Shown here: piece by piece, positions 4,628-19,845 of the stretch
Numbering within the stretch: position 1 is the first letter of the stretch
Layout: every line of letters begins with the position of its first letter
IMG/VR virus record: IMGVR_UViG_3300031857_000118
Location: 1-64,000 of that record
Origin: a virus
Strand: one strand, 5' to 3'
Length of the DNA: 64,000 nt
Program-made: the position numbers and the translations under genes
Notes under the pieces: model-generated
Database searches by the model: none
The model's input: only the letters and a program-made list of their open reading frames with translations
Told to the model about the DNA's origin: nothing

Positions 4628-4663
4628 GTCACCATTTTTCATATTTAACTACTTGTGGTATGA

Positions 4664-4671
4664 TATAAATA
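4664..4671 (+). promoter_or_regulatory. late promoter box TATAAATA
   Basis: An exact T4-type late promoter box lies 20 bases before ATG 4692. It is back-to-back with the minus-strand late box at 4620-4627, so this intergenic region would fire in both directions late in infection. Confidence 0.65.
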
Positions 4672-4691
4672 AGTCGAATTTATTAAATTTT

Positions 4692-4916: not shown

Positions 4917-4920
4917 GGTT

Positions 4921-4946
4921 TAGTCCCCGAAAGGGGACTTTTTTAT
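4921..4946 (+). terminator. intrinsic terminator before psbA
   Basis: A seven-base-pair stem (AGTCCCC with GGGGACT) closed by a GAAA tetraloop is followed by a T run. It separates the 4692 gene from the psbA promoter, whose -35 box starts four bases after this element. Confidence 0.85.
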
Positions 4947-4949
4947 GAC

Positions 4950-4983
4950 TTGACACCAGAACCAGACCGTAGTATGATAAATA
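4950..4983 (+). promoter_or_regulatory. composite sigma70 and late promoter of psbA
   Basis: TTGACA at 4950-4955 is a perfect -35 hexamer and TATGAT at 4973-4978 a good -10, with a 17-base spacer. The late-type box ATAAATA occupies 4977-4983, overlapping the -10. Read directly, psbA can be transcribed by unmodified host polymerase early and by the phage late system afterwards. Actual start sites are not known from sequence. Confidence 0.8.
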
Positions 4984-5151
4984 GGTAAACAAATGTTAAG
5001 GATTCCTCATAATTCTTAACATTGTCAAACACCCGTTAACCGAGACCTATGGGTGTATAAGAACGTCTCTCATACCCACAATGGAGGGTGTTGTGGGATA
5101 TACTGTAACCATCCAGTTCCCCCTGGACTTTTACTTACCCTTTTAAAACAA
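4984..5151 (+). promoter_or_regulatory. structured 5' leader of psbA
   Basis: About 165 bases separate the promoter from psbA ATG 5152. Three hairpins are visible. The largest pairs 4992-5004 with 5011-5023, thirteen pairs including one G-U, around the loop CCTCAT. ACACCC 5029-5034 pairs with GGGTGT 5051-5056, and CCCACAA 5075-5081 with TTGTGGG 5091-5097. No Shine-Dalgarno sequence precedes the start codon. A regulatory or stabilising leader is inferred. Confidence 0.5.
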
Positions 5152-6711
5152 ATGACTGCTTCAATCGCTTCACGCCGTTCTGGCGAAAATACCTGGGAAC
5201 AATTTTGTAACTGGGTGACTTCAACCGATAACCGTCTTTATGTCGGGTGGTTTGGTGTTTTGATGATTCCAACGCTGCTTACTGCTGCTACTTGTTTCAT
5301 TATCGCATTCATTGGTGCTCCTCCTGTGGACATTGATGGTATTCGTGAACCCGTTGCTGGTTCTCTAATGTACGGAAACAACATCATCTCTGGTGCCGTT
5401 GTTCCTTCGTCCAATGCAATTGGACTGCACTTTTATCCCATCTGGGAAGCTGCTTCCCTAGATGAGTGGCTTTACAACGGTGGACCTTTCCAACTTGTTG
5501 TCTTCCACTTCCTCATCGGCATCTATTGCTATATGGGTCGTGAATGGGAACTCTCTTACCGTCTAGGTATGCGTCCTTGGATTATGGTTGCTTACAGTGC
5601 TCCTGTTGCTGCTGCGAGTGCAGTTTTCCTGGTCTATCCTTTCGGTCAAGGTTCTTTCTCTGATGCAATGCCTCTGGGTATTTCTGGTACGTTCAACTAT
5701 ATGCTTGTGTTCCAGGCAGAGCACAACATCCTGATGCACCCCTTCCATATGCTTGGAGTTGCTGGTGTGTTCGGTGGTTCTCTGTTCAGTGCAATGCACG
5801 GTTCTCTGGTTACTTCCTCGCTGGTTCGTGAAACCACTGAGAATGAGTCTCAGAACTACGGTTATAAGTTCGGCCAAGAAGAAGAGACTTATAACATCGT
5901 TGCTGCTCACGGTTATTTCGGTCGTCTTATTTTCCAATATGCGTCCTTTAATAACTCCCGTTCACTGCACTTCTTCCTTGCTGCCTGGCCCGTTGTAGGC
6001 ATCTGGTTCACTGCTCTTGGTGTGAGCACTATGGCTTTTAACCTCAATCGTCGGGGTCCCGTCCTAGCAATTTGACGGTAAACATCGGGTGAACTGCTGG
6101 AAGCCCTCCACAAATGGGTAATCAGCATCCAAGTCCAAAGTACACTTTGGAAAGGTTCAGAGACTACCTGAGGAGTTCAGTCTCCTTAATAACAGGAATA
6201 AGTGCCCGACATCCTAAACGGATGAAGATATAGTCCACTCCTTAAAGATGGTAAATTTAAGGGTTCAGTGTAACGGTTTCAACTTTAACCAATCTATCGT
6301 AGATAGTCAGGGTAAAGTTATTAATACTTGGGCAGATGTGCTCAATCGTGCAGGACTCGGAATGGAGGTAATGCACGAACGGAACGCTAGATTTGTTGGT
6401 GTTCTTGCTTAGGAATAAGCATTAGTAAAATCGGGTTAAACGGGGAAACTCTCTATGAGACAATCCCGTACCAAGTCAGAAAGGGTTTAAGTTTTCTGAA
6501 AGGTCTAACGACTAGGTGGTGAGTCCCAACAATAATCCACCCACGAATGCCCGACATCCAGAACGGATGAAGAGATAGTCTGAACTTACTAGTGATAGTA
6601 AGAAGTAGAGGATAAAGAACCACTACGATAACAAAATTGCACAACTTCCCACTTGACCTTGCTGCCGCAGAAGCAACTCCTGTTGCTCTTACTGCACCTG
6701 CAATCGGTTGA
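5152..6711 (+). CDS. psbA: photosystem II D1 protein, three exons split by two group I introns
   Basis: Exons at 5152-6044, 6271-6388 and 6640-6711 join to 1083 bases, encoding 360 residues, the normal D1 length. D1 binds the reaction-centre cofactors and most ligands of the manganese cluster in the thylakoid membrane; phage copies replace the fast-turning-over host protein. The protein starts [20 protein letters not shown]. An upstream in-frame start at 5053 would add a non-D1 extension. Unspliced, translation would stop at 6075 after [13 protein letters not shown]. Spliced, it reads [14 protein letters not shown], then MHERNA from exon 2 and [12 protein letters not shown] from exon 3. Intron 2 lies exactly between Ala336 and His337 (plant numbering), separating manganese ligands His332/Glu333 from His337/Asp342/Ala344. 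Confidence 0.97.
6045..6270 (+). ncRNA. group I intron 1 of psbA (226 nt)
   Basis: The boundaries satisfy group I rules: the exon ends in T (6044) and the intron in G (6270), and joining restores the D1 frame through a Leu codon (phase 2). Exon bases ACCU 6041-6044 pair with GGGU 6054-6057, the guide sequence, with the required U-G at the splice site. The conserved core includes GTTCAGAGACTA at 6155-6166 and AAGATATAGTCC at 6225-6236, whose GACTA/TAGTC parts form P7. The intron has no frame of useful length, so it depends on an enzyme encoded elsewhere for mobility. Confidence 0.92.
6389..6639 (+). ncRNA. group I intron 2 of psbA (251 nt)
   Basis: The exon ends in T (6388) and the intron in G (6639); splicing is phase 0 and restores ERNA-HNFP. 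Exon AACGCU 6383-6388 pairs with GGUGUU 6398-6403 as P1, six pairs with the splice-site U-G. GACTA 6510-6514 pairs with TAGTC 6576-6580 as P7. Bases 6548-6580 match intron 1 bases 6203-6235 in about 30 of 33 positions, so the two introns are related. A variable region of about 50 bases follows P7. No endonuclease frame lies inside. Confidence 0.9.
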
Positions 6712-6798: not shown

Positions 6799-7320
6799 AT
6801 GAGAACCACGAAGATTTGTAGAACCTGCACACAAGAACTTCCTATCTCTGATTTTAGAGAAGGTCGTAGAAGGTGTTTAAGATGTGAGGAAAAAACTTAT
6901 GCTGAAAACTGGGCAAGTAAAACTCACATTACTTGCAACAAGTGTGGTGTAGAAAAATTGATTTCTGAATATTACAAAGGGCACAAAAGGTGCAAGGAAT
7001 GTTATAGTAAAGACTATAAGGATAAGAAACCTTCCTTTGATGATAAGAAGGACTATATGTTGAAATATACTTATGGAGAAGATTTTGGACTAGACGAATA
7101 TAAAAAACTCCTTCAGGAACAAAATGAAGTTTGTGCTATTTGCTTTAATCCAAATACCAATGGTAGAAAAGATAGTAATAGTCTTTATGTGGACCACGAC
7201 CATAATACTGGTAAAGTTCGTGGATTGCTTTGTAGCAACTGTAATAGAATGCTTGGTCTAGTTGGTGATAATTTAAATACATTAAGTAGTGCAGTTAAAT
7301 ATCTACAAAAGCACCAATAA
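6799..7320 (+). CDS. free-standing homing endonuclease, endonuclease VII family
   Basis: The 173-residue product has two N-terminal zinc-ribbon-like repeats (CRTC...CLRC and CNKC...CKEC). These are followed by a recombination endonuclease VII domain with CAIC, the catalytic-type VDHDHNTGKVRGLLCSNCN segment and a GLVGDN tail. This matches in type and position the free-standing endonuclease F-CphI described next to the intron-bearing psbA of cyanophage S-PM2. It is inferred to cut intronless psbA alleles and so spread one or both introns with itself. It has both an early-type and a late-type promoter. It could instead be an unrelated Holliday-junction nuclease, but location favours homing. Confidence 0.88.
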   Translation: MRTTKICRTCTQELPISDFREGRRRCLRCEEKTYAENWASKTHITCNKCGVEKLISEYYKGHKRCKECYSKDYKDKKPSFDDKKDYMLKYTYGEDFGLDEYKKLLQEQNEVCAICFNPNTNGRKDSNSLYVDHDHNTGKVRGLLCSNCNRMLGLVGDNLNTLSSAVKYLQKHQ

Positions 7321-8012: not shown

Positions 8013-8046
8013 TTGACCTCTTTTGTAAAGTATTGTAAACTAAATA
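8013..8046 (+). promoter_or_regulatory. probable sigma70-type promoter of psbD with late-like box
   Basis: TTGACC 8013-8018 is a near-perfect -35; TAAACT 8036-8041 is a weak -10 at a 17-base spacing. TAAATA 8041-8046 resembles the core of the late box. The arrangement copies that of psbA but is weaker. Confidence 0.5.
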
Positions 8047-8070: not shown

Positions 8071-9132
8071 ATGGTATCTTCATCACTTTCATTACCAAAC
8101 CAACAACGAAGTTGGTTTGATTTACTTGATGATTGGTTGAAAAGAGATAGGTTTGTGTTTATTGGATGGAGTGGTTTACTTTTTATGCCTTGTGCTTACC
8201 TAGCATTAGGTGGATGGTTTACTGGAATTACATTCGTCACGAGTTTTTATACACACGGTTTAGCATCCTCATTTCTAGAAGGTTGTAATGCGTTGACCGC
8301 TGCGGTAAGCACCCCAGCAGATGCTATGGGTCATTCTCTTCTTCTGCTCTGGGGTCCTGAGGCTCAAGGGGATATCGTCAGGTGGTTCCAACTTGGGGGA
8401 CTCTGGACTTTTGTGGCACTCCACGGTGCCTTTAGTTTGATTGGATTTATGCTTCGTCAGTTTGAGATTGCTCGTCTTGTAGGCATTCGTCCTTATAATG
8501 CTATTGCGTTTTCTGGTCCGATTGCAGTATTCGTTTCTGTATTCTTGATGTATCCACTGGGTCAGTCCAGTTGGTTCTTTGCTCCATCCTTTGGGGTAGC
8601 AGCAATCTTCAGGTTCCTGCTGTTCCTTCAGGGTTTCCATAACTGGACTCTCAACCCCTTCCATATGATGGGAGTTGCTGGTATACTAGGAGGAGCACTA
8701 CTCTGTGCGATTCACGGAGCAACCGTAGAAAACACTCTATTTGAAGATAGTGAGCAAGCAAATACATTCAAAGCATTTGAACCTACGCAAGAGGAAGAGA
8801 CTTACTCAATGGTTACTGCGAACAGATTCTGGTCACAGATTTTTGGTATTGCTTTCAGTAATAAGCGTTGGCTTCATTTCTTTATGCTTTTCGTTCCCGT
8901 TATGGGTCTTTGGACTTCTTCTATTGGTATTATTGGTCTGGCTCTCAATCTTCGTGCTTACGATTTCGTGAGTCAGGAGATTCGTGCAGCAGAAGACCCT
9001 GAGTTTGAAACCTTCTATACCAAGAATATTCTCTTGAATGAAGGTCTTCGTGCTTGGATGGCTCCAGTAGACCAACCACACGAGCAGTTTGTGTTCCCAG
9101 AGGAAGTACTTCCGAGGGGTAATGCTCTTTGA
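8071..9132 (+). CDS. psbD: photosystem II D2 protein
   Basis: The 353-residue product is full-length D2, the partner of D1 in the photosystem II reaction centre. Recognisable segments run the whole length: [64 protein letters not shown] with the chlorophyll and iron histidine region, [20 protein letters not shown], and the C-terminal [20 protein letters not shown] stands seven bases before ATG 8071; the in-frame TTG at 8068 is less likely. Unlike psbA it is uninterrupted. It maintains D2 supply during infection and was acquired from a cyanobacterial host. Confidence 0.97.
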
Positions 9133-19598: not shown

Positions 19599-19845
19599 TA
19601 AACTCAAGGAAGAATTAAATAACAAGTTTCTATGTCCTCAAAAGTTCGCTCAGGATATAGAGAATATTGTCAAAGAATCTAAAATCAATTATATTGATGC
19701 AATCGTCACATATTGTGAAGAAAATAGTATTGAAATTGATACTATATCTAAATTAGTTTCTAAACCATTGAAAGAGAAACTTAAAAATGATGCTATGGAA
19801 TTGAATTTTTTGAAAAAAACTACTCGTGCTAAATTGCCATTGTGA
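19591..19845 (+). CDS. gp33-like late transcription accessory protein
   Basis: ATG 19591 (MNDKLKEELNNKFLCPQKFA) overlaps the nuclease gene end by eight bases; an upstream start at 19468 would lie wholly inside that gene. The 84-residue product is helical, with INYIDAIVTYCEENSIEIDT, KPLKEKLKNDAMELNFL and a hydrophobic LPL end. This resembles cyanophage homologues of T4 gp33, which bridges RNA polymerase to the sliding clamp at late promoters. The adjacent gp59 gene matches the T4 order 59-33. The late ATAAATA boxes in this window would be its targets. Confidence 0.7.
   Translation: MNDKLKEELNNKFLCPQKFAQDIENIVKESKINYIDAIVTYCEENSIEIDTISKLVSKPLKEKLKNDAMELNFLKKTTRAKLPL

Follow-up and report, generated by a model that had tools for sequence, protein, structure and literature searches.

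When, and by which polymerase, is psbA transcribed in a T4-like cyanophage in which a host-type and a phage late-type promoter element are joined at one site? The window considered here, the whole stretch of DNA that was analysed (64,000 bases, taken from a virus record of 69,336 bases that is itself a fragment), belongs to a T4-like cyanophage by gene content, with gp59, gp33, gp32, PhoH, thymidylate synthase, psbA, and psbD families. On the plus strand, direct reading of the sequence gives a -35 element TTGACA at 4950..4955, a 17-nt spacer at 4956-4972, a -10 element TATGAT at 4973..4978, and a T4-type late (Gp55) box GATAAATA (consensus NATAAATA) at 4976..4983. The ATAAATA core of the latter (4977-4983) and the -10 element overlap by two bases, A4977 and T4978, and both elements of an overlapping early/late promoter are thus present at one site. 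The first-pass annotation had placed all of these elements correctly. Its description of the host-type element as perfect is too generous, as TATGAT agrees with the -10 consensus at 5/6 positions and the sigma70 site as a whole at 11/12, with its spacer of 17 nt falling within the 16 to 18 nt used here to define such sites.

The psbA gene begins with the ATG at 5152, and its first coding segment (5152..6075, plus strand) is read as far as the first stop, located within an intron. Two group I intron matches follow on the plus strand, at 6035..6262 (77.9 bits) and 6379..6602 (67.2 bits), and downstream of them the ORF at 6799-7320 is an endonuclease VII-type gene and possibly a homing endonuclease. 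Just 5' of the promoter, an intrinsic-terminator-like hairpin of 7 pairs with a T run (4922..4946, plus strand; AGTCCCCGAAAGGGGACT TTTTT) probably insulates psbA from the gene before it. A CRISPR-repeat match from Rfam on the minus strand (4917-4954) was rejected, as it lies below threshold and corresponds to the terminator hairpin.

The individual motifs are not in excess. We count 44 sigma70-like sites in the first 14 kb, against 37.9 expected, with the psbA site tied best among them, and 21 copies of ATAAATA in the window, against 25.9 expected. Single-motif enrichment was therefore discarded as evidence, and the case rests on the composite. The pattern TTGAC-N17..19-TANNNTAAATA occurs twice on the plus strand, at 4950 before psbA and at 8013 before psbD, and not at all on the other strand; in 200 dinucleotide shuffles it averages 0.025 copies per strand, and 0/200 reach two copies. 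The second composite (TTGACC-17-TAAACT-AAATA; 8013..8046, plus strand) precedes a psbD identified by family match, with its ATG at 8071. In addition, 9 of the 18 plus-strand ATAAATA boxes lie 21-40 nt 5' of an ORF start (rough P of 4e-11, with a hand-picked ORF list), which suggests, judged by position, that the late box is in use in this genome. The psbA box is an exception, since the long leader places it 176 nt upstream of its gene. A further but weaker early/late neighbourhood is seen at 4636-4671, where TTTTCA-17-TATGAT is directly followed by ATAAATA (TATGATATAAATA) before a 77-aa ORF at 4683.

Viral loci for comparison were gathered with a 14-base pattern from the PhotoRC-II RNA and with psbA protein queries. 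Across 95 distinct PhotoRC-II-linked leaders, with kinship ignored, TTGAC is kept in 90, the 17-nt spacer in 90, and AAATA directly 3' of the -10 element in 87. The set of 262 distinct psbA upstream regions from viruses, kinship again being ignored, includes 184 with a sigma70 site, and 154/184 are composite. Where a sigma70 site and the PhotoRC-II pseudoknot pattern occur together (163 regions, kinship ignored here as well), the composite is present in 137, with L112 as one further, mis-picked case, and about 25 show a sigma70 site but no late box. The psbA leaders therefore fall into a composite and a sigma70-only class. In six of the 184 regions (L154, L158, L176, L030, L031, and L033), we observe a -35 element TTGACG within the loop of a terminator-like hairpin whose T run forms the spacer, so that terminator and promoter are fused.

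The late half of the promoter is missing from psbA of cyanobacteria, of S-TIM5, and of T7-like phages. We found no composite in 77 distinct bacterial psbA upstream regions, which are mostly not from the closest marine hosts, and reading the psbA loci of six T7-like cyanophages revealed neither composite nor PhotoRC-II. In S-TIM5, which is a myovirus but does not belong to the T4-like group, psbA is preceded by PhotoRC-II, with no composite or late box found in that leader. The gp55 gene was found in 12/12 named T4-like phages and in none (0/7) of the six T7-like phages and S-TIM5; a composite at psbA is present in 9/12 of the former and 0/7 of the latter, in which gp55 was not detected (Fisher p 0.003, kinship ignored). 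A rule by which the late box always accompanies gp55 was rejected, since P-SSM4, S-SSM4, and S-SSM7 encode gp55 and lack the box at this position of psbA, and dual use is therefore not obligatory. Based on this distribution, gp55 looks necessary but not sufficient for a composite at psbA. The window phage has a homologue of gp33, the late transcription co-activator (19606..19845, plus strand; phrog_254 late promoter transcriptional regulator, E 3e-30); gp55 gave no match in the 69,336-base fragment record, yet it is present in every named T4-like relative. A further record of near-genome size (G007, 204,829 bases) carries three composites, with gp55 not detected; an S-PM2 gp55 query, run without a control, had no match in the doubtful records.

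We consider it probable (roughly 0.75) that the site is a composite promoter used in turn by the host polymerase and then by the phage late system, with both reading into one leader. In the early phase, the host RNA polymerase carrying its main sigma would read TTGACA/TATGAT and start near 4985, taking the start as about 7 nt after the -10 element. At a later stage, Gp55, the sigma factor of the phage, would read the overlapping ATAAATA together with Gp33 and the Gp45 clamp; the T4 late box spans -13 to -6 (PMC1524935), which places the late start near 4989, and the two predicted starts thus fall within 4984..4990 on the plus strand. Given this overlap of the boxes, only one of the polymerases can occupy the site at a time, which argues for succession and not simultaneous use. 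T4 late promoters need no -35 element (PMC2988020), and a TTGAC conserved at a distance of 17 nt is therefore indicative of sigma70. The proposal that one site hands psbA over from host to phage polymerase thus stands in its dual recognition, which is well supported by TTGAC, the 17-nt spacer, and AAATA being kept together across T4-like leaders; what was described as one site is probably two starts about 4 nt apart, judging from the spacing.

The two transcripts would have one leader in common, in which a 5' hairpin is followed by PhotoRC-II with its pseudoknot. The hairpin is predicted by folding to form 13 pairs (4992..5023, plus strand), and the matching segment in 109 relatives folds better than its shuffles (median z -2.4). 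PhotoRC-II (RF01717) lies 5' of psbA at 5017..5111 on the plus strand as a full-length match, at 81.7 bits against a gathering threshold of 39. The leader alignment adds a pseudoknot between GAGAC in the first hairpin loop of PhotoRC-II (5042..5046, plus strand) and GTCTC in the linker (5065..5069, plus strand). In 105 aligned leaders, picked by their promoter and with about 20/125 dropped by hand (short, without PhotoRC-II, or window duplicates), 99.6% of cells pair, 4/5 pairs vary on both sides, and 0/500 shuffled or slid versions equal this pairing; the variants AAGAC, GAGAT, and GGGAT each occur with a matching partner. The pseudoknot is missing from the Rfam consensus line. CaCoFold lists PhotoRC-II among the families whose database structure misses covarying pairs (PMC7657543), and the pseudoknot may therefore be anticipated there. 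Taken together, hairpin, PhotoRC-II, and pseudoknot probably govern mRNA stability or translation.

With regard to timing, it had been suggested that this promoter keeps the D1 supply constant and without interruption, which is not supported by the measurements in P-HM2. In this phage, auxiliary metabolic genes (AMGs) including psbA are expressed only in the middle cluster, with a peak at 2.5 h, and 95% of the genes common to P-HM2 and P-SSM2 share a cluster (PMC5082946). We observe that psbA carries the composite in both, as TTGACT-17-TAATATAAATA in P-HM2 and TTGACA-17-TATAATAAATA in P-SSM2; the composite therefore goes with middle kinetics and not with constant supply. In the window phage, the sum of the two activities would give middle-type kinetics without the MotA system, in line with the proposal made for RB49 and S-PM2 (PMC2984593), though middle kinetics could also have another cause. 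In addition, splicing of the S-PM2 psbA intron is light-dependent (PMC5931967), and D1 output would also be influenced by how the intron is spliced and by the structured leader.

The same promoter type stands before a small host-type gene set comprising psbA, psbD, SLH-domain, small outer-membrane-barrel, and talC genes. Scanned whole, the 12 T4-like genomes contain 19 composites, preceding psbA (9), the outer-membrane-barrel gene (PF24653; 7), psbD (1), talC (1), and one other gene. A first set, in which these genomes were joined by S-TIM5 (no site) and five IMG/VR records, has 31 composites against 2 matches to the reversed pattern. Forty further IMG/VR contigs have 66 against 1, located before psbA (30), psbD (16, two of them split by an insertion), SLH-domain genes (12), the outer-membrane barrel (3), and others (3), with 2/66 belonging to PhotoRC-II leader copies not before psbA. 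All 58 records, each reached via a psbA locus, together hold 97 sites against 3 reversed-pattern matches, with psbA 44, psbD 19, SLH 14, barrel 11, and talC 1 accounting for 89/97; downstream genes were labelled from sequence signatures, with Pfam run on six representatives. A broad viral scan with TTGAC-N18-TATNATAAATA was rejected as not specific, since 106/148 matches have no psbA signature downstream (31 have psbA and 11 are cut short), and the displayed ones look AT-rich. The pattern is specific only within cyanophage genomes.

Several loci from these scans deserve separate mention. In the two leader copies, L701 (G031 63981) and L732 (G019 66746), composite and PhotoRC-II are followed not by psbA but by a fibre-like ORF and an ORF of 89 aa, which would fit a duplicated leader or one that has lost its gene. 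In L708 and L711, the psbD frame stops about 20 codons in and is followed by intron-like sequence. L692 carries a manA RNA (RF01745, 166.6 bits) at 723-923, downstream of the outer-membrane-barrel gene. Finally, an element like GGACTCGAAAGGATCGTAACCCTG is common to five psbA leaders (L101, L298, L302, L308, and L312) and two barrel leaders (L756 and L758); scanning L302, L756, and L758 gave no Rfam family match for it.

An unlikely alternative to this sequential use is that the host sigma70 promoter alone functions, with ATAAATA as an AT-rich discriminator kept for easier melting. P-SSM4 and S-SSM4, both T4-like, manage with a sigma70 site alone, and ATAAATA by itself is not enriched in the window. 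Yet what is kept is specifically AAATA, found after the -10 element in 137/163 PhotoRC-II/sigma70 leaders while the next commonest sequence occurs in 4, and not mere AT-richness. AAATA lies outside the sigma70 consensus. Moreover, it is absent at psbA of S-TIM5, T7-like phages, and bacteria, and matches a box that stands at late-promoter spacing before many other ORFs of the window genome. The converse, that only the late promoter matters while TTGACA is chance or a relic and early psbA transcripts arise by read-through, strikes us as very improbable: late boxes do seem to be in use in this phage, but TTGAC and the 17-nt spacer are kept in most leaders, including those without a late box, a terminator-like hairpin stands directly 5' of the promoter, and P-HM2 psbA lies outside the late cluster.

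It is also unlikely, slightly more so than a sigma70 promoter acting alone, that the dual promoter is real but general to many phage genes, its link to photosynthesis and envelope genes stemming from a choice of records based on psbA. The route by which all 58 records were reached would favour this; against it, 18/19 sites in the 12 wholly scanned T4-like genomes precede psbA, psbD, talC, or a barrel gene. Beyond sequential use of the psbA site itself, we regard as evenly balanced the broader proposition that in T4-like cyanophages a composite regulon (psbA, psbD, talC, SLH, and barrel) replaces the MotA middle system for AMGs, with the 4-nt shift in start showing the order of polymerases.

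The timing with which viruses express borrowed photosynthesis genes sets light and carbon processing in infected ocean cells. Here, one 34-base pattern picks out, in each T4-like cyanophage genome and with almost no background, the promoter of psbA and those of a few other genes, and it predicts a start-site shift visible to standard 5' end mapping. The pattern further links photosynthesis genes with outer-membrane proteins of the phages whose role is unclear, which suggests that both follow one expression schedule. In the open-licence literature searched, we found neither the sharing of the composite among psbD, SLH-domain, barrel, and talC genes nor the distinction between composite and sigma70-only psbA leaders.

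Compared with known systems, the window resembles T4 in its NATAAATA late box and its gp33 gene (PMC2988020, PMC1524935), whereas the T4 late promoter has no -35 element and the window site keeps TTGACA at 17 nt. PhotoRC-II (RF01717, PMC2864571) is matched at full length between promoter and psbA; the element itself is no different from the family, with the pseudoknot counted here lying outside the Rfam consensus line. For RB49, S-PM2, and Syn9, overlapping early/late (middle-mode) promoters had already been proposed, and motA/asiA are absent from cyanomyoviruses (PMC2984593). The window shares with these phages, which lack MotA/AsiA, the combination of host-type and late-type elements, while their promoters serve homologues of T4 middle genes and the composite set described here consists of host-type genes.

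A direct precedent is that of Puxty 2018, who described sigma70 and overlapping Gp55 motifs upstream of cyanomyovirus psbA (PMC5931967, Fig. 3c). Both the arrangement, a -35 and a -10 element containing the Gp55 site before psbA, and its early-and-late reading are the same. That study differs in concerning psbA only and in the 36-bp inverted repeat of the S-PM2d 5'-UTR, and the window leader differs from that of S-PM2, which gave no PhotoRC-II match when scanned, in its PhotoRC-II, 5' hairpin, and two intron matches. The psbA dual promoter has thus been published since 2018 (PMC5931967), and the window site is one more member.
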